DNA of 64,000 nt from the NCBI RefSeq assembly GCF_001425825.1, contig NZ_LMDM01000001.1, forward strand, positions 380,204 through 444,203, in the 5' to 3' direction. The notes beneath the pieces were generated by a model, which was not told where the DNA came from, searched no databases, and worked only from the letters and a program-made list of their open reading frames with translations. Positions 3,445 to 13,375 of the stretch are shown piece by piece (positions within the stretch are counted from its first letter, which is position 1; each line of letters begins with the position of its first letter). Source of the DNA: Rhizobacter sp. Root1238 (lineage in GTDB: Bacteria > Pseudomonadota > Gammaproteobacteria > Burkholderiales > Burkholderiaceae_C). The position numbers and the translations under genes were made by a program.

Positions 3445-4263
3445 ATGGAAACCAGCACGCACGCACCGACGCATGCACTCTCGCGGGGCAGCATTCCGCT
3501 GCTCGTCTCGTTCCCGCACGCCGGCACCGGCATCCCGCCGGACATCGAGGCGCGCATGACCCCCGAGGCGCTGCTGCGCGCCGACACCGACTGGCACCTG
3601 CCGCTGCTCTACGACTTCGTCGCGAAGATGGGTGCGAGCACGCTGGTGCCGCAGATGTCGCGCTACGTGATCGACCTGAACCGCCCGCCGGAAGACACCA
3701 ATCTGTACCCCGGGCAGGACACCACCGGCCTGGTGCCGCAGGACACCTTCCACAAGCAGCCGCTGTACCTTGCTGGGCAGGCGCCCGACGCGGCCGAGGT
3801 CGACGCGCGGCGCGAGCGCTTCTGGCGCCCGTACCACGTGGCCTTGCGCGGCGAGCTGGAGCGCCTGCGCGACCTGCACGGCGTGGCCGTGCTGTGGGAC
3901 GCACACTCGATCTCGAGCGTGTTGCCGCGCTTCTTCGACGGCAAGCTGCCCGACCTGAACCTCGGCACCGACCAGGGGCGCGCATGCGCACCGCGCGTGC
4001 AGGCGACGGTCGAGGCGGTGCTCGGCGGCCAGCGCGACTACACGCAGGTGAGCAACGGCCGCTTCAAGGGCGGCTACATCACGCGCCACTATGGCGAACC
4101 GGCGCGCGGCATCCACGCGCTGCAGATGGAGATGTGCCACTGCACCTACATGGACGAGCCGGCGCCGTTCGGCTTCCGGCCCGATCTCGCGGCCCGCGTG
4201 CGGCCGCTGCTACAGCGGATGCTGCAGGCCGCGCTCGATGCCGCGATGGAAGCACGCACGTAG
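3445..4263 (+). CDS. hutG: N-formylglutamate amidohydrolase (N-formylglutamate deformylase)
   Basis: 272-residue cytoplasmic enzyme hydrolysing N-formyl-L-glutamate to glutamate and formate, the last step of the five-step histidine pathway. [10 protein letters not shown] near the start, DLNRPPED and LWDAHSISS are characteristic of the FGase family. The ATG at 3445 is chosen because the upstream extension of the frame crosses the operator and the divergent gene. It is read rightward, convergent with hutI, and the two 3' ends overlap by 54 bp. This type of HutG goes with HutF, which is also present. Confidence 0.95.
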
Positions 4264-5433
4264 CGGGCTCGCGCCGATCGCGTAGCTCAGCGCGGCCGGG
4301 TGGTCGACGTCCCACAGGCACAGGTCGGCCTGCCTGCCGATCTCGATGCAGCCGTGCGTGGCCGCCAGGCCGAGCGCCTGGGCCGCATGGCGGGTGACGC
4401 CGAGAAGCGCCTCGGCCGGCGTCATGCGGAACAGCGTGCAGGCCATGTTCATCATCAGCGGCAGGTGGGTGCCGGGGCTGGTGCCCGGGTTGCAGTCGGT
4501 CGCGACGGCCATCGGCACGCGGTGCCGGCGGAACAGCGCGATCGGCGGCACCACGGTGTCGCGCAGGAAGTAGTACGCGCCCGGCAGCATCACCGCCACC
4601 GTGCCGGCGCGCGCCATCGCGATGACGCCGGCTTCGTCGACATGCTCCAGGTGGTCGGCCGACAGCGCGCCGAAGTCGGCGGCAAGTGCGGCGCCGTGCT
4701 GGTTCGACAGCTGCTCCGCATGCAGCTTGACCGGCAGCCGGTGGCGCTGCGCCGCGTCGAACACGCGTTGCGTCTGGGCCGGCGTGAAGCCGATCGTGTC
4801 GCAGAACGCGTCGACCGCATCGGCCAGGCCGGCCCGTGCGATGTCCGGCAGCAGGTGTTCGACGATCTCGTCGATGTAAGCGTCGGCGCGGCCGTCGAAC
4901 TCCGGCGGCAGTGCGTGTGCGGCCAGCAAGGTGGTGCGCACGTCGATCGGGAAGCGCTCGCCGAGCCGGCGGGCCACCTGCAGGCACTTGCGTTCGGCAT
5001 CGAGCGACAAGCCGTAGCCCGACTTGATCTCGACCGTCGTCACGCCGTGGCGCATCAGCTCGCGCAGCCGGCGGGCGGACGCGTCGAACAAGGCCTCGGG
5101 CGTCGCGTCGCGGGTCTGCCGCACGGTCGAGCGGATGCCGCCGCCGGCCCGCGCGATCTCTTCATAGCTGGCGCCCTGCAGCCGCAGTTCGAACTCGCGC
5201 GCGCGGTCGCCGGCGTAGACCAGGTGGGTGTGGCAATCGACCAGGCCGGGCGTCAGCAGCGCGCCGCCGGCATCGTGCTCGGTGCGCGGCTGCAGGCCGG
5301 CCGGCAGCGCGGACATCGGCCCGACGCGCTCGATGCGGCCGCCGGTGACCGCGACGAAGCCCGGCGCCGACGGCGTGCAGGCCTCGTCCAGCCCGTCGAC
5401 GATGCGCGCGTTCGTCAGCAGCAGGTCGGTCAT
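4210..5433 (-). CDS. hutI: Imidazolonepropionase
   Basis: 407-residue amidohydrolase-fold metalloenzyme that opens 4-imidazolone-5-propionate to N-formimino-L-glutamate. Metal-binding motif [11 protein letters not shown] lies near residue 67, with KLHAEQLS and TDCNPGTSP further on, all in the expected order. Its ATG overlaps the hutF stop (ATGA), and it is the last gene of hutU-hutD-hutF-hutI. Length is normal for HutI. Confidence 0.96.
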
Positions 5434-6803
5434 CGGTGCTCCAGCAGGTGGGTGCGCGCGGCGACGAAGGCCTCGGCGGCGCGCCCGGCGCCTGCATGCT
5501 GCCCGTCGTGCACACGGCGCTGCCCGGCCACCCAGACGTCGCGCACGCCGCGGGCGCCGTGCGTCGAGAACACATGGCGCGCGAGGCGTTGCGACGCGGC
5601 GAGGCCAGCGTCATCGAACGCGGCCAGGTGAACGAAATCGGCCTGCTGGCCGACGCGCAGCCCGGCGATCGAGCGCCCGCTGGCGCGCGCGCCGCCGGCC
5701 ACCGCCGACAGCCACATCGCGTCGGCGACCTGCGGGTGCGCGGCGCTCGCGAGCACGTTGCGGCGCAGCTTCGTCAGCCGCTGGCCGTACTCGAGCAGCC
5801 GCAGTTCCTCGGCGGCGTCGACGCACGCATGGCTGTCGGAGCCGATGCCCCAGTACCCGCCGTCGGCGATGAAGGCCTCGGCATCGAACACGCCGTCACC
5901 GAGGTTGGCCTCGGTGCTCGGGCACAGGCCGGCGACCGCGCCGCTGCGGGCGAGCGCGCGGCGTTCGGCCGCATCGAGGTGCGTCGCATGCACCAGGCAC
6001 CAGCGCGCGTCGACCGCGGCATGGTCCAGCAGCCACTGCACCGGCCGCTGGCCGCTCCAGGCCAGGCAGTCGTCGACCTCGCGCTGCTGCTCGGCCACGT
6101 GGATGTGCACCGGCGCGCTGGCATCGGCGCCGTGCAGCCCGCCGAGCAGGTCGCGCAGCGCCTCGGGCGGCACCGCGCGCAGCGAATGCGGCGCCGCGCC
6201 GACGCGCACGCCGTCGTGGCGCAGCCGGCCGATCAGCGACAGCAGACCGTCGACGCTGTTCAGGAAACGGCGCTGCCCGGCCAGCGCCGGCTGGCGGCCG
6301 AACCCGCTCGCCTGGTACAGCACCGGCAGCATCGTCAGGCCGATGCCGGCGTCGCGCGCAGCGGCCACCAAGCGCAGCGACATCTCGGCCGCATCGGCAT
6401 GCACGCGGCCGTCGGGCTGGTGGTGCACGTAGTGGAACTCGCAGACGGCGGTGTAGCCGGCCTGCAGCATCTCGATGTAGAGCTGCGTCGCGATCGCCTG
6501 CAGCGCGTCGGGCGTCAGCGCCTGCGCGAAGCCATACATCAGCGTGCGCCAGCTCCAGAAGCTGTCCTGCTCGGCGCTGCGGTGCTCGGTGAGCCCGGCG
6601 AATGCGCGCTGGAACGCGTGCGAATGCAGGTTCGGCAGGCCGGGCAGCAGCACGCCGGCCACGCGTTCGGTGCCGGCGGGCAGCGGCAGGCCGGCTTCGA
6701 CGCAGGTCAGCGTGCCGGCGTCGTCCCATTGCAGCAGCACGTCGTCGGCCCAGCCCTGCGGCAGCAGCGCGTGGGAGGCGAACAGCGATCCTGCCGGGCT
6801 CAT
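5430..6803 (-). CDS. hutF: Formimidoylglutamate deiminase
   Basis: 457-residue amidohydrolase converting N-formimino-L-glutamate to N-formyl-L-glutamate and ammonia. [13 protein letters not shown] gives the first metal ligands, [14 protein letters not shown] and [13 protein letters not shown] the later ones. The presence of HutF defines the five-step route (HutF plus HutG) rather than direct formiminoglutamase. Start ATG overlaps the hutD stop (ATGA); the stop overlaps hutI. Confidence 0.95.
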
Positions 6804-7374
6804 GCGAGGGGCTCCAGCCGCACCAGCAGCGCGCAGGGCGCGTCGCCGGTGCAGTCGAGCGACAGCGCGGGCATGCCGTCGCGCCACAGCCAGGCCTGCA
6901 GCGGACCGAGTCCGCGCGCACCGTCGGACCAGCGGCCGAGGCTCGCGAGCAGCAGCCCGGCCGCGGCCGGCTCGGTGCGCGTGGCGCCGTGCAGCGCGCG
7001 CACGTCGGCACGCCAGCGGCCGCGGCGCGCCATCACGTTGAAGTCGCGGCACGGGCCGTCGAGCAGCGTGGCGTTCAGCGCGTCGTCGCCGGAGAAATGG
7101 AAGGGCTCATGCGCGCGGTCGAGCCGCTCGTCGAGCCGACGGTCGGGCGACTGCAAGTGCATGCCGGCACCGCGCAGCAGCACGATGCAGCGGTCGATGC
7201 CCGGAAAGGCCGAGAACGGCGCGTCGCGCTCGACCTCGGCGACGCTGAGGCGCCAGTCGAAATTGGCCGAGGCGTCGCGCGGCTGCACCGCCAGCTCACG
7301 CGTCAGCCCGGCACCGTTGCGCCAGGCCATGGCGGGCAGCGACTGCAGGTCCAGCGTTTCGCTGCGCCCGCTCA

Positions 7375-7375
<1 letters not shown>
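6800..7375 (-). CDS. hutD: HutD family protein
   Basis: 191-residue cupin-fold protein of the HutD/Ves family, conserved in hut operons. In Pseudomonas HutD is proposed to limit hut expression, possibly by binding formylglutamate; that is family knowledge, not visible here. MAWRNGAGLTREL near the N-terminus and WRLSVAEVERDAPFSAFPG are the usual family motifs. Start overlaps the hutU stop and the stop overlaps hutF, so expression is tightly coupled. Confidence 0.9.
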
Positions 7376-9108
<1,733 letters not shown>

Positions 9109-9131
9109 CGGCGGCCTTCGAGGGGTTCTGG

Positions 9132-9151
9132 AAAGTGGTCTAGACCACTTT
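9132..9151. promoter_or_regulatory. 20-bp perfect palindrome upstream of hutU, probable hut operator
   Basis: AAAGTGGTCTAGACCACTTT is a perfect inverted repeat 23 bp upstream of the hutU ATG. The near-identical site before hutG supports a dedicated regulator, most likely a HutC/GntR-type urocanate-responsive repressor, whose gene is not in the window. No second copy is seen near the LysR gene. Confidence 0.75.
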
Positions 9152-9206
9152 GCGCAGGATGCCGGGACTTGCACGGGCCGTCAAGCCCCGGGGTCCGGTC
9201 CGCCGA

Positions 9207-10142
9207 TCAGTCGGTGGCCGACTGCGCCGCCTCCACCAGCCGCGCGCGCAGCCACTGGTGCGCGCTGGCCCGGTCGTGCCGCATGTGCCACAGCGCCTCG
9301 ACGTGGATGCCCGCCAGCTGCAGCGGGATCGGGCGCTGCACCAGCCGGTCCTGGTAGCCGGTGGCGGCGATGAAGGTGCGCGGCAGCACGGTCAGCAGGT
9401 CGCTGCTGGCGACCACCCGGCCGGCGGTGAAGAACTGGTTGACCGTCAGCACGATGCGCCGCGTGCGGTGCAGTTGCGTCAGCGCCTGGTCGACCAGCCC
9501 GTGCGGCCGGCCGGAGAAGCTGACCAGCAGGTGGTGCGCCTCGCAGAAGCGGTCCAGCGTCAGTTCGCCGTCGGCGAGCGGGTTGCCGCGTCGCATCACG
9601 CAGACGTATTCGCTGTCATACAGGCGCTCATGGTGGATCGGGCTGGTGCTGCCCTGGGCGACGAGGTTGGCGACCGCGTCCGGGAAGTAACCGACCGCGA
9701 AGTCGACCTCGCCGCGTTCCAGCAGCGGCCGCGGGTCGCGGGTGGTCAGCGGGATCACCCGCAGGTTCGCGAGCGCCTGGCCCTGTTCGATCTGCTGAAC
9801 GAGGGAGGGCATCAGCATCGCCGCGGTCGCATCCGCCATCGCGAGTCGGAAGTTCGCCACATCCTTCTGGGGGTCGTAGTCGCCCGGCGCGAAGGCCTGG
9901 CGCAACGCCGCCAGAGCGGCCTGGACTTCCGGCCACAGCTGTTCGGCGCGCGGCGTCGGCTTCACCCCGAACGACGTGCGAGTGAGCAGTTCCTCACCGA
10001 CAGAGTCTTTCAGGCGCTTGAGGGCGTTGCTGACCGCCGGCTGCGTCAGCGCCAGCCGCTCGGCTGCGCGGGTCAGGTTGCCTTCGGCCATCACCGCGTC
10101 AAACACGCGCAGCAGGTTCAAGTCAAGTGTGCGGAAATTCAT
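9207..10142 (-). CDS. LysR-family transcriptional regulator
   Basis: 311-residue regulator: N-terminal winged HTH (residues about 6-65, LDLNLLRVFDAVMAEGNLT, then TRAAERLALTQPAVSNALKR) and a LysR substrate-binding domain from about residue 90. The MNFRTLDLN ATG is preferred; the open frame extends upstream 23 codons but without a better start. It lies between the hut operon and three small genes read divergently. By the usual LysR layout its targets are more likely the divergent small genes than hutU. Ligand unknown. Confidence 0.9.
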   Translation of the reverse strand: MNFRTLDLNLLRVFDAVMAEGNLTRAAERLALTQPAVSNALKRLKDSVGEELLTRTSFGVKPTPRAEQLWPEVQAALAALRQAFAPGDYDPQKDVANFRLAMADATAAMLMPSLVQQIEQGQALANLRVIPLTTRDPRPLLERGEVDFAVGYFPDAVANLVAQGSTSPIHHERLYDSEYVCVMRRGNPLADGELTLDRFCEAHHLLVSFSGRPHGLVDQALTQLHRTRRIVLTVNQFFTAGRVVASSDLLTVLPRTFIAATGYQDRLVQRPIPLQLAGIHVEALWHMRHDRASAHQWLRARLVEAAQSATD

Positions 10143-10165
10143 GTTTCGTACTCCTCGACACCGGG

Positions 10166-10189
10166 ATATCACTGGCGTGTATATCACTG
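10166..10189. promoter_or_regulatory. Direct repeat ATATCACTG x2 in the LysR/small-gene intergenic region
   Basis: ATATCACTG occurs at 10166-10174 and 10181-10189, 15 bp apart, and the second copy is inside GTGTATATCAC, which has the partly symmetric T-N11-A look of LysR binding sites. It lies in the 142-bp gap between divergent genes, so it is a candidate LysR site or promoter element. Weak evidence from a short repeat. Confidence 0.35.
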
Positions 10190-10284
10190 ATTCACAGCTT
10201 TCAGTAGTCAACCCATGGGGTAAACCCTAGGATTGCGGCATGCGAGGTCGAAAACGATTTCGCGAGTCTTGAAAGGACCTCTCC

Positions 10285-10518
10285 ATGAACCCCGTGATCA
10301 GCCTGAATCTCCCGCAAGTGCCGACCGGCGCCGCCGCGTCCGGTTCGGCATCGCAAGACCTGTGGGGCCGTCTCGGCCGCCGTGTCTGGGCCTCGTTGGA
10401 GGCCGCCGGCCAGACCCGCGCCCGTCCCGAACTGCTGGCGCTGGCCAGCCGCTACGAAGCGTCGCAGCCTGAACTCGCAGCCCAGCTGCGCTCCATGGCT
10501 TCCGTTCGCCAGCGCTGA
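10285..10518 (+). CDS. Small conserved-motif protein A of a three-gene tandem (unknown function)
   Basis: 77 residues, no signal peptide or membrane helix. A good ribosome site AAAGGA sits 7 bp before the ATG. The C-terminal part (LLALASRYEASQPELAAQL) shares a pattern with the two genes that follow: A-x-x-Y-x4-P-x2-A-A-x-L then an Ala-rich end. The N-terminal part (WGRLGRRVWASLEAAG) is basic/aromatic and specific to this member. Divergent from the LysR gene. Function not recognised; DUF1127-like small regulators were considered but the motifs do not match well. Confidence 0.7.
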   Translation: MNPVISLNLPQVPTGAAASGSASQDLWGRLGRRVWASLEAAGQTRARPELLALASRYEASQPELAAQLRSMASVRQR

Positions 10519-10580
10519 TACCAGCACGCACCGACCTCCCCCGAATTCGCCACAAGCGACCCCAACCCGAAGGAAACACG

Positions 10581-10838
10581 ATGACCACGACGACGATGGA
10601 CCTGCAAGTCCCCCAACAACGTACCGCCCCGCGCCTGGCCGCGCCGTTCGCTGCTGCTTTCGCCACGCTGCTGAACGCCCTGAAGCCCGCCGAGCGCGTG
10701 AACGTCGAAGAGAACCAGGCCGCCCGTGAGGCCGCCGACGTGCGAGCGATGGCTCGCCAGTACCTGAAGACCGACCCCGGCTTCGCTGCGGACCTGTTCG
10801 CAGCCGCCGACCGGCACGAAGAGCTGTTCGGCAACTGA
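10581..10838 (+). CDS. Small conserved-motif protein B of a three-gene tandem (unknown function)
   Basis: 85 residues, preceded by AAGGAAA. Middle region PFAAAFATLLNAL is hydrophobic and may be an amphipathic helix; the C-terminal region ARQYLKTDPGFAADLFAAADR is the version of the shared motif closest to protein C. Predicted soluble. 62 bp after gene A and 43 bp before gene C, same strand, so probably co-transcribed. No assigned family that can be recognised by eye. Confidence 0.7.
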   Translation: MTTTTMDLQVPQQRTAPRLAAPFAAAFATLLNALKPAERVNVEENQAAREAADVRAMARQYLKTDPGFAADLFAAADRHEELFGN

Positions 10839-10881
10839 ACCGGTGCCGCTGCCACGGGCGGCGGCACACAGAGAGACCACC

Positions 10882-11118
10882 ATGAACCAGTCGACTTTCT
10901 TCGCTGACTCGCAAGCCTCGACGGCTTTCGTCCAGCGCATCTCGGACGCTTATGCGTTCGCCACCGCCGCGCTCGCCAGCCTGCTGAGCCCGGCCGCCGA
11001 AAGCCCGGCCGAAGCCGCGAGCCGCCTGCGCTCGCTGGCCGACGCCTACAGCGACGGCCAACCGAGCTACGCCGCCGACCTGCGCGCGGCTGCCGACCGG
11101 GCCGACGCCCAGGTCTGA
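10882..11118 (+). CDS. Small conserved-motif protein C of a three-gene tandem (unknown function)
   Basis: 78 residues from the ATG preceded by GAGAGA; an in-frame ATG 13 codons earlier lacks a ribosome site. Contains FAQ-like Ala-rich helix segment (YAFATAALASLLSPAAE) then LRSLADAYSDGQPSYAADL and RAAADRADAQV, the same motif as in proteins A and B. Followed at once by a strong terminator, which closes the three-gene unit. Confidence 0.7.
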   Translation: MNQSTFFADSQASTAFVQRISDAYAFATAALASLLSPAAESPAEAASRLRSLADAYSDGQPSYAADLRAAADRADAQV

Positions 11119-11138
11119 GCGTTCGACGCTCCAACGAG

Positions 11139-11164
11139 AAGGCCCGCATCCGCGGGCCTTTTTT
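11139..11164. terminator. Intrinsic terminator after the small-gene tandem, likely bidirectional with pckG
   Basis: Stem AAGGCCCGC (11139-11147) pairs with GCGGGCCTT (11152-11160), followed by a T run to 11164. It lies between the end of small gene C and the end of the convergent pckG; the A residues before the stem give a shorter T run in the other direction. Confidence 0.88.
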
Positions 11165-11185
11165 CATGGGTGATCGCGGGTCGCG

Positions 11186-13051
11186 TCAGCCGGCCAGCCG
11201 TGCCTCGATGCGCGCCTTCGTCGCGGTCAGTTCCGCCGGCAGGTGCCAGGCGAGCTGCTTGAACAGCTCGTCGTGCAGCGCCAGCTCGGCCTGCCACGCG
11301 CCGGCATCGACGCCGGTCACCTGGTCGTACTGCGCCGCGCTGAAATCGAGGCCGGTCCAGTTCAGGTCCTGGTAGCTCGGCGTGACGCCGAACACGTTCT
11401 CGCGGCCCGCGGCCCGGCCTTCGACGCGATCGAGCATCCACTTCAGCACGCGCATGTTCTCGCCGTAGCCGGGCCAGACGAACTTGCCGTCGTCGCCCTT
11501 GCGGAACCAGTTCACGCAGAAGATCTTCGGCAGCGTGGCGCCCTTGGCTTGCAGCTTCGCACCCAGCGACAGCCAGTGCTGGAAGTAGTCGCTCATGTTG
11601 TAGCCGATGAACGGCAGCATCGCGAACGGGTCGCGGCGCACCACGCCCTGCTGGCCGGCGGCGGCGGCGGTGGTTTCGCTGCCCATGGTGGCGGCCATGT
11701 AGACGCCTTCGGTCCAGTCGCGCGCTTCGGTGACCAGCGGCACGGTCGTCGAGCGGCGGCCGCCGACGATGATCGCGTCGATCGGCACGCCCGCCGGGTC
11801 GTCCCAGGCCGGGTCGAGCGCCGGGTTGTTGGTGGCCGGCACCGTGAAGCGCGCATTCGGGTGCGCCGCCTTCGCGCCGGTCTCCTTCGCGATCGCCGGG
11901 GTCCAGCGCTGGCCCTGCCAGTCGGTCAGCTGGGCCGGCGGCACGTCGGTCATGCCTTCCCACCAGACGTCGCCGTCGTCGGTGAGCGCGACGTTCGTGA
12001 AGATCACGTCGCGCTTCAGGCTGGCCATGCAGTTGAAGTTGGTCTTCTCGTTGGTGCCGGGTGCGACGCCGAAGTAGCCCGCTTCCGGGTTGATCGCGTA
12101 CAGGCGCCCGTCGGCGGCCGGCTTGATCCACGCGATGTCGTCGCCGATCGTCGTGACCTTCCAGCCCGGCAGGCCGCCCGGTGGGATCAGCATCGCGAAG
12201 TTGGTCTTGCCGCAGGCGCTCGGGAAGGCCGCCGCCACGTGGTGTTTCTTGCCTTCGGGGCTTTCGACGCCGAGGATCAGCATGTGCTCGGCCAGCCAGC
12301 CTTCGTCGCGGCCCATCGTGCTGGCGATGCGCAGCGCGAAGCACTTCTTGCCCAGCAGCGCGTTGCCGCCGTAGCCGGAACCGTAGCTCCAGATCTCGCG
12401 CGTCTCGGGGTAGTGGACGATGTACTTGGTGGTGTTGCACGGCCACGCGACATCCTTCTGGCCCGCTTCCAGCGGCGCGCCGACGGTGTGCATGCACGGC
12501 ACGAAGTCGCCATCGGTGCCCAGCACGTCGAGCACGGCCCGGCCCATGCGCGTCATGATCTTCATGTTGACCGCGACGTACGGGCTGTCGGACAGCTCGA
12601 CGCCGATGTGCGCGATCGGCGAACCGAGCGGCCCCATGCTGAACGGCACGACGTACATCGTGCGGCCCTTCATCGCGCCGCGGAACAGGGCACGGTCGCC
12701 TGTCTGCAGCAGCGCCCGCATCTCGGCCGGGTCCATCCAGTTGTTGGTCGGGCCGGCGTCTTCCTTCTTCGCGCTGCAGATGAAGGTACGGTCTTCGACG
12801 CGCGCCACGTCGCTCGGGCTGCTGCAGGCGAGGTAGCTGTTCGGCCGCAGCTCGGGATTCAGCTTCTTGAAAGTGCCGGCGGCGACGAGCTGGGCACAGA
12901 GCCTGTCGTATTCGGCGGTGCTGCCGTCGCACCAGTGCACGTCGCGGGCTTCGGTCAGCGCCGCCATCTCGGCCACCCATTCCATCAGCCGGGTGTGTTT
13001 GACGTAGGCGGGCGCATTCAGGCGCAAACCCTCCATCGCGGGTCGGTTCAT
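11186..13051 (-). CDS. pckG: Phosphoenolpyruvate carboxykinase (GTP)
   Basis: 621-residue cytoplasmic enzyme converting oxaloacetate and GTP to phosphoenolpyruvate, CO2 and GDP; gateway to gluconeogenesis from amino acids and organic acids. [14 protein letters not shown] is the kinase P-loop with the reactive Cys of GTP-type enzymes, and IGDDIAW gives metal-binding Asp residues. GGAG lies 6 bp before the chosen ATG (MNRPAMEG); the frame could begin at a TTG four codons earlier, which is less likely. Full family length, single gene facing the small-gene tandem. Confidence 0.96.
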
Positions 13052-13375
13052 CGTGGACTCCAATCATCAAAGTTGCGGGATCGGGCGAACCTCCGGGCTC
13101 GCCCCATGCCGCAAACGCGGTCTGCCATCGCCATCGCCAGGAACAGGCGGTTTCATGCCGGATCGGCAATCGGCGTGCCGCCGCCGGGCAAGGCATTGTC
13201 GTTCGACTGTAATCGCGCCGTAACCACCAGGGCCCGGGGGGCCATGCAATTTGGGAATACGGACATGCAAAGCAGTCGTGACTTTTTCGGCGGTTCTGCG
13301 CGGCGGCTGGCCGGGCGGTGCGGCACTCGATCCGGCCGCCCCTGGCCGTTTCTGCGGCCGCTTTAAGATCGTCGG
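13052..13375. other. Intergenic region upstream of pckG and the next gene
   Basis: 324 bp between two divergent genes. A hairpin-forming repeat GGGCGA...TCGCCC lies about 30 bp before pckG. No convincing small gene or RNA was seen; promoters for both genes must lie here, but no clear -35/-10 pair could be chosen by eye. Confidence 0.5.

Follow-up and report, generated by a model that had tools for sequence, protein, structure and literature searches.

Three small tandem genes in the window, by which we mean the whole 64-kb stretch of DNA analysed, are homologous by sequence comparison and belong to a small-protein family that has not been described and has no entry in the protein libraries we searched. 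Their usual adjacency to the same LysR-type regulator in related bacteria suggests a conserved, uncharacterised control system. As the best explanation of the data as a whole, to which we assign a probability of roughly 0.45, we propose that the genes form a LysR-controlled operon of helical-hairpin adaptors that works in the manner of VtlR and the DUF1127 proteins. Small proteins are poorly annotated. The present family was found in roughly one third of the genomes that we examined from one large GTDB family, and because it is consistently tied to a single regulator and a single promoter, it offers a ready experimental handle.

The three genes lie on the forward strand: A (positions 10285–10518) encodes a basic protein of 77 amino acids (net charge +4), B (10581–10838) a protein of 85 amino acids (–2) and C (10882–11118) a protein of 78 amino acids (–4). 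The lengths and the overall extent agree with the first-pass annotation. A gene for a LysR-type regulator is divergent from them (9207–10142, reverse strand, start codon at 10142–10140). Its product matched HTH_1 (PF00126, 68.5 bits) and LysR_substrate (PF03466, 85 bits), both above their cut-offs, and is an ordinary LysR protein like those described by BsrA, LeuO and the other NCBIfam LysR models, the best of which, BsrA, it matched with 201.9 bits, far below the cut-off of 480. Beyond the LysR gene, genes resembling a histidine-utilisation cluster occupy the reverse strand (4210–9174); we take these to be hutI, a hutF-like gene and, at 7375–9174, the urocanate hydratase gene hutU. On the other side, A–B–C converges with a reverse-strand gene (11186–13063) that, judging from its sequence, presumably encodes a GTP-type phosphoenolpyruvate carboxykinase (PEPCK). 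The shared terminator previously assigned to the small genes agrees with a terminator-like hairpin that folds 3′ of C, between the convergent genes (11136–11163, forward strand; –21.3 kcal/mol, z = –5.0), although a consensus scanner listed no terminator in this region; the same scanner listed no sigma-70 promoter at the locus. An RNA element was also considered and was rejected, since Rfam gave nothing at E values up to 1 within positions 9000–11400.

We compared the three proteins by Smith–Waterman alignment against composition-preserving shuffles, and obtained scores of 82 for B–C (reached by 0 of 5000 shuffles), 51 for A–C (4 of 5000) and 44 for A–B (26 of 5000). The C-terminal motif A-x2-Y-x4-P-x2-A-A-x-L, which the first-pass annotation had described as common to the three proteins, survived a comparison of the same kind: it occurred three times in the six-frame translation of the 64-kb window, once in each gene, versus a mean of 0.025 matches in residue-shuffled windows. 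Among 98 family copies, the strict motif with its proline turn was present in 53, and a relaxed form (A-x6/7-P-x2-A-x2-L/M) in 89. Two other statements of that annotation held in part. The N-termini, which had been said to differ, share a pattern between A (ISLNLPQVP) and B (MDLQVPQQRTAP; ISLQIPQTRTAP in same-genus relatives), and the ribosome site assigned to each gene is weak in the case of C (AGAGAG). Nine pairwise comparisons with the close relatives G005 and G008 gave pN/pS values of 0.06 to 0.44, from few changes, and the reading frames are maintained across genera, which together argue that A, B and C are translated proteins.

Neither Pfam nor NCBIfam matched A, B or C at E ≤ 1, and 32 diverse family members gave only scattered weak matches of single members at E ≤ 0.1, bearing out the initial impression that no known family was involved. 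DUF1127 (PF06568, cut-off 23.3 bits) was rejected as a home for the family: it matched none of the three proteins at E ≤ 1, was absent among the families matched by the 32 members at E ≤ 0.1 and had no match in seven further members at E ≤ 1; PF06568 was present in 1 of 25 relatives. Searches of PHROGs yielded nothing below E = 0.07 and two matches above this value for B. In PADLOC, A and C had no match at E ≤ 0.1, and membership in an anti-phage defence system was rejected, the sole match being a weak one of B to a 2TM effector (E = 0.0032, 15.2 bits). A search for plasmid-borne relatives with one composite family sequence gave no match. A search for relatives of solved structure had the designed-looking chain UNC_079 as its best match (E = 0.032). 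Foldseek found nothing in the PDB at E ≤ 0.001, and neither Pfam nor Foldseek recognised a DNA-binding fold in the family. Literature searches, which covered open-access papers, returned nothing about this locus.

The first-pass annotation had suggested a profile search combined with a check of co-occurrence with LysR. Within the host's GTDB family, a 16-row profile (E ≤ 1e-3) matched the soluble family in 126 of 399 genomes, which represent 55 of 141 genera, and LysR orthologs (E ≤ 1e-80) were found in 255 of these genomes. Both were present in 101 genomes, the soluble family only in 25, LysR only in 154 and neither in 119 (Fisher test, P = 3.6e-6, kinship ignored). Across the order, a 32-row profile (E ≤ 1e-4) detected the family in 7 of 399 genomes, and five of the seven do not belong to the GTDB family, so that beyond this family the soluble proteins would appear to be rare or too diverged. 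LysR orthologs occurred in 36 of the 399 genomes of the order; 24 of these genomes lie outside the GTDB family, in four other families. Single-sequence searches of 60 relatives (E ≤ 0.01) detected A in 11, B in 15 and C in 11, although the weakest of these matches may be due to chance. All ten same-genus relatives had a B-type gene, and only G005 and G008 among them additionally carried A and C.

We then considered the gene neighbourhood in stretches fetched around chosen matches, which comprised the best and a varied selection rather than a random sample. With the duplicates L076 and L081 excluded there were 78 stretches, and 77 loci remained because L052 had no copy at 1e-4. The placement of the small genes beside a LysR gene proved usual among them: a LysR ortholog (51–100% identity) stood head-to-head with the family in 62 of the 77 chosen loci and in another orientation in none, and the retrieved stretch contained no LysR gene in the other 15 (in L061, the contig ends). 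A PEPCK match (>60% identity) was found in 50 of the 77 loci and was absent from the stretch in 27, and hutU was found in 12, some stretches being too short to reveal either gene; the two neighbours may reflect mere proximity. In four loci of one genus (g121; L075, L093, L096 and L104), there was no LysR gene, the small gene lay directly beside hutU and two promoter palindromes were seen. Four genomes (G275, G400, G379 and G372) carried unlinked family copies with the LysR ortholog elsewhere in the genome. Each of the 77 loci had one to four family copies, and three is not the rule; at L049 (6514–7818, G015), four tandem copies were observed, one of which (MNSPVQTLKIHVP...) has a strongly diverged C-terminus.

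The region between the LysR gene and A holds a candidate LysR site, TATATCACTGATTCACAGCTTTCAGTAG (10180–10207), which contains ACTGA-N10-TCAGT and whose position is conserved in 14 aligned intergenic regions, and a shared promoter element, GGGTAAACCCTAGGAT (10218–10233, forward strand), composed of a palindrome and a –10-like hexamer. The latter is the only match to GGGNWWNCCCTANNNT in the window, and 100 shuffles gave none. The GGGTWAACCCTANNAT element, agreeing in at least 11 of its 14 positions, was found upstream in 66 of the 77 loci versus 0.75 of 77 after shuffling. The palindrome was retained in 14 of the 15 LysR-less loci, and LysR is thus not needed for this element. The sequence ATTCA, in contrast, preceded the palindrome in 49 of 61 LysR-linked loci versus 3 of 14 LysR-less loci; this count excludes two loci whose palindromes were weak. 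Together with the head-to-head arrangement, this difference favours the earlier proposal that the LysR regulator switches A–B–C, and we consider such control likely in view of gene order and sites. Two separate palindromes occurred in 7 of the 15 LysR-less loci, from three genera, versus none of the 62 LysR-linked loci. These patterns suggest two inputs at the promoter, LysR and a separate reader of the palindrome.

A looser palindrome pattern was not enriched in the host's own genome (3 matches versus 5 for a reversed control), and a stricter pattern gave 43 matches in 36 chosen genomes versus 1 for its reversal. Among 29 strict-palindrome loci viewed, 15 held a family member or represented the LysR slot of the family, and 14 had other genes or no genes behind the palindrome. 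One of the 15, L193 in G321, is an unlinked gene of the A type to which the palindrome alone had led. At L212 (G201:C16:82401), the palindrome precedes an open reading frame (ORF) of 58 amino acids that the family profile did not recognise (E = 0.26); this could be another small protein sharing the regulon. At L195 and L214 (G372:C1:71326), the palindrome is flanked by a LysR gene of another kind, unrelated to that of the family, and by an ORF of 495 amino acids divergent from it, and other LysR promoters may therefore use it as well.

We viewed the slot in 20 of the 154 GTDB-family genomes in which LysR occurs without a soluble-profile match. A divergent ORF with a common C-terminus (W/A-x-D-x-R-x-x-A-x-L-like) was present in all 20, a hairpin of two transmembrane (TM) segments in 17 of the 20 slot proteins (the exceptions being L172, L177 and L180), and PEPCK in 13 of the 20 loci. 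Three members of this TM type were searched against Pfam and NCBIfam and received no family name (best E = 0.0063). In L173, a TM-type protein of 235 amino acids, the C-terminal motif seemingly appears twice (DARVMADLKAA and EDPRMLADLRAA). An hhalign comparison of the soluble and TM types scored 19.8, against a maximum of 16.2 in 100 column shuffles, and the C-terminus alone scored 18.3 against 12.6, although the probability given by hhalign for the relation was only 4 to 8 per cent. The two types are linked by a natural sequence, L247, which comes from a different family within the order. It matched both profiles, the soluble one with 23.4 bits (11.4 for the best of 500 shuffles) and the TM one with 24.1 bits (7.7). 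Other candidate bridges failed on the soluble profile (L249 and L172) or the TM profile (L256 and L237), and L251 was marginal (13.5 versus 13.2 bits). Common descent of the C-terminal module in the two types is likely on the basis of these alignments. Outside the GTDB family, we viewed 20 loci with the LysR ortholog; the divergent ORF matched one of the profiles in 14 (E ≤ 1e-3 in a tiny search space), and no family-like divergent ORF was found at this threshold in L231, L233, L234, L235, L243 and L248.

Within the soluble family, we built a quick tree of 98 copies from 80 alignment columns, with A, B and C labels assigned by motif, partly from letters inside the alignment. These labels required 3 changes on the tree, the least possible being 2 and the average of shuffles 26.4. 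The A copies, including gene A of the window, formed one side of a branch with an SH-aLRT support of 90, and the B branch had a support of 97; 46 of the 95 inner branches were weak. The tree thus favours A, B and C being ancient lineages of paralogues that different genera have in common, and this recurrence makes separate roles for the three probable. All 11 A-type copies are basic (+3 to +6), and C- and B-type copies average near +1. AlphaFold models made from shallow input were of modest overall confidence, with mean pLDDT values of 61.7 for B (helices at residues 20–33, 42–62 and 66–83) and 75.8 for C (4–35, 42–56 and 61–76, the last two near 90). Both models end in a C-terminal helical hairpin, with pLDDT values there of about 80 in B and 90 in C, and the constant part of the family is best explained as this predicted hairpin, LxxLAxxYxxxxPxFAADLRAAAxR. 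The pairwise shuffles, the profile matches and the model of C all favour the original description of a duplicated and diverged set of small helical proteins. The age of the three lineages, the TM proteins in the same slot and the second promoter element go beyond that description.

Other explanations of these data were weighed. The resemblance of A, B and C might be nothing but convergence on a low-complexity alanine-rich helix, since all three are alanine-rich and the A–B score is moderate and was reached by some shuffles; this idea is scarcely credible and was already disfavoured, as composition-preserving shuffles still fall short, the motif far exceeds its expected frequency and the profile matches in many genomes are tied to one gene slot. 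Small tandem genes and the single weak PADLOC match of B could point to a toxin–antitoxin or phage-defence unit. We regard this as very improbable, given that the chromosomal gene order is maintained in many genera, that no PHROGs match fell below E = 0.07 and that the composite member found no plasmid match; pairing with a LysR regulator is, moreover, unusual for such units.

The remaining two alternatives take up the promoter and the TM proteins. The small proteins could take part in a feedback loop by binding their own LysR regulator or the GGGTWAACCC palindrome, which would fit the persistence of the palindrome with the small genes where a nearby LysR is missing, its doubling in some of these loci and in none of the LysR-linked ones, and the discovery of a family member in G321 from it. 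However, the family has no recognised DNA-binding fold, B and C are acidic and the strict palindrome also precedes unrelated genes, and we consider such a loop distinctly unlikely. An envelope function seems more improbable still: the family would have branched off, in soluble form, from hairpin proteins of the membrane whose task is to sense or stabilise it, as the two-TM proteins in the same slot, the alignment of their C-terminus to the hairpin with a score that none of 100 column shuffles reached and the double match of L247 would allow. Against it, A, B and C contain no two-TM segment, the hhalign probability is low and the bridge rests mainly on L247, the other candidates failing one of the two profiles.

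In the adaptor explanation that we prefer, the divergent LysR regulator would control the A–B–C operon from a site upstream of the palindromic promoter element, and a second factor would probably read that element. A, B and C would bind partner proteins, perhaps each other, and would adjust central carbon or nitrogen metabolism. We put forward the adaptor function tentatively, and the metabolic target is doubtful. The head-to-head pairing, the association of ATTCA with LysR, the PEPCK and hutU neighbours, the predicted hairpins and the recurring lineages speak for this explanation; the LysR-bearing genomes in which the soluble family was not found at the threshold used, the retention of the palindrome without LysR and the modest overall confidence of the models count against it. 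A wider reading, which we hold to be rather unlikely, is that of a Burkholderiales-wide and separately arisen counterpart of the VtlR–DUF1127 system, in which the slot divergent from an orthologous LysR gene would always hold a fast-evolving protein ending in the helical-hairpin module. This protein would be soluble in some genera, as one to four paralogues such as A–B–C that may form a hetero-complex, and membrane-anchored in others. Its promoter would have one site for LysR and a palindrome for a second regulator, and the set could pass to other control once LysR was lost.

VtlR, a LysR-family regulator of Brucella and Agrobacterium, is reported to activate three small proteins and an sRNA (PMC7486931, PMC12595884), and small DUF1127 proteins of A. 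tumefaciens are reported to bind PhoR and to influence how carbon and nitrogen are used (PMC12501420). That system resembles the present one in combining a LysR regulator with a set of three small proteins, and is itself tied to carbon use and protein–protein interaction. For A–B–C, the gene order and sites would fit control of several small proteins by a LysR regulator. DUF1127 proteins (YjiS, PF06568) are likewise short and helical, with several per genome in some species. The arrangement differs, however: vtlR of A. tumefaciens sits between trxB and the abcR genes (PMC7486931), whereas A–B–C is a putative tandem operon divergent from its LysR gene and next to PEPCK. The likeness is one of layout, the A–B–C family not being DUF1127 by profile. 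If A–B–C does work like VtlR and DUF1127, one and the same regulatory layout would have taken in two unrelated families of small proteins.
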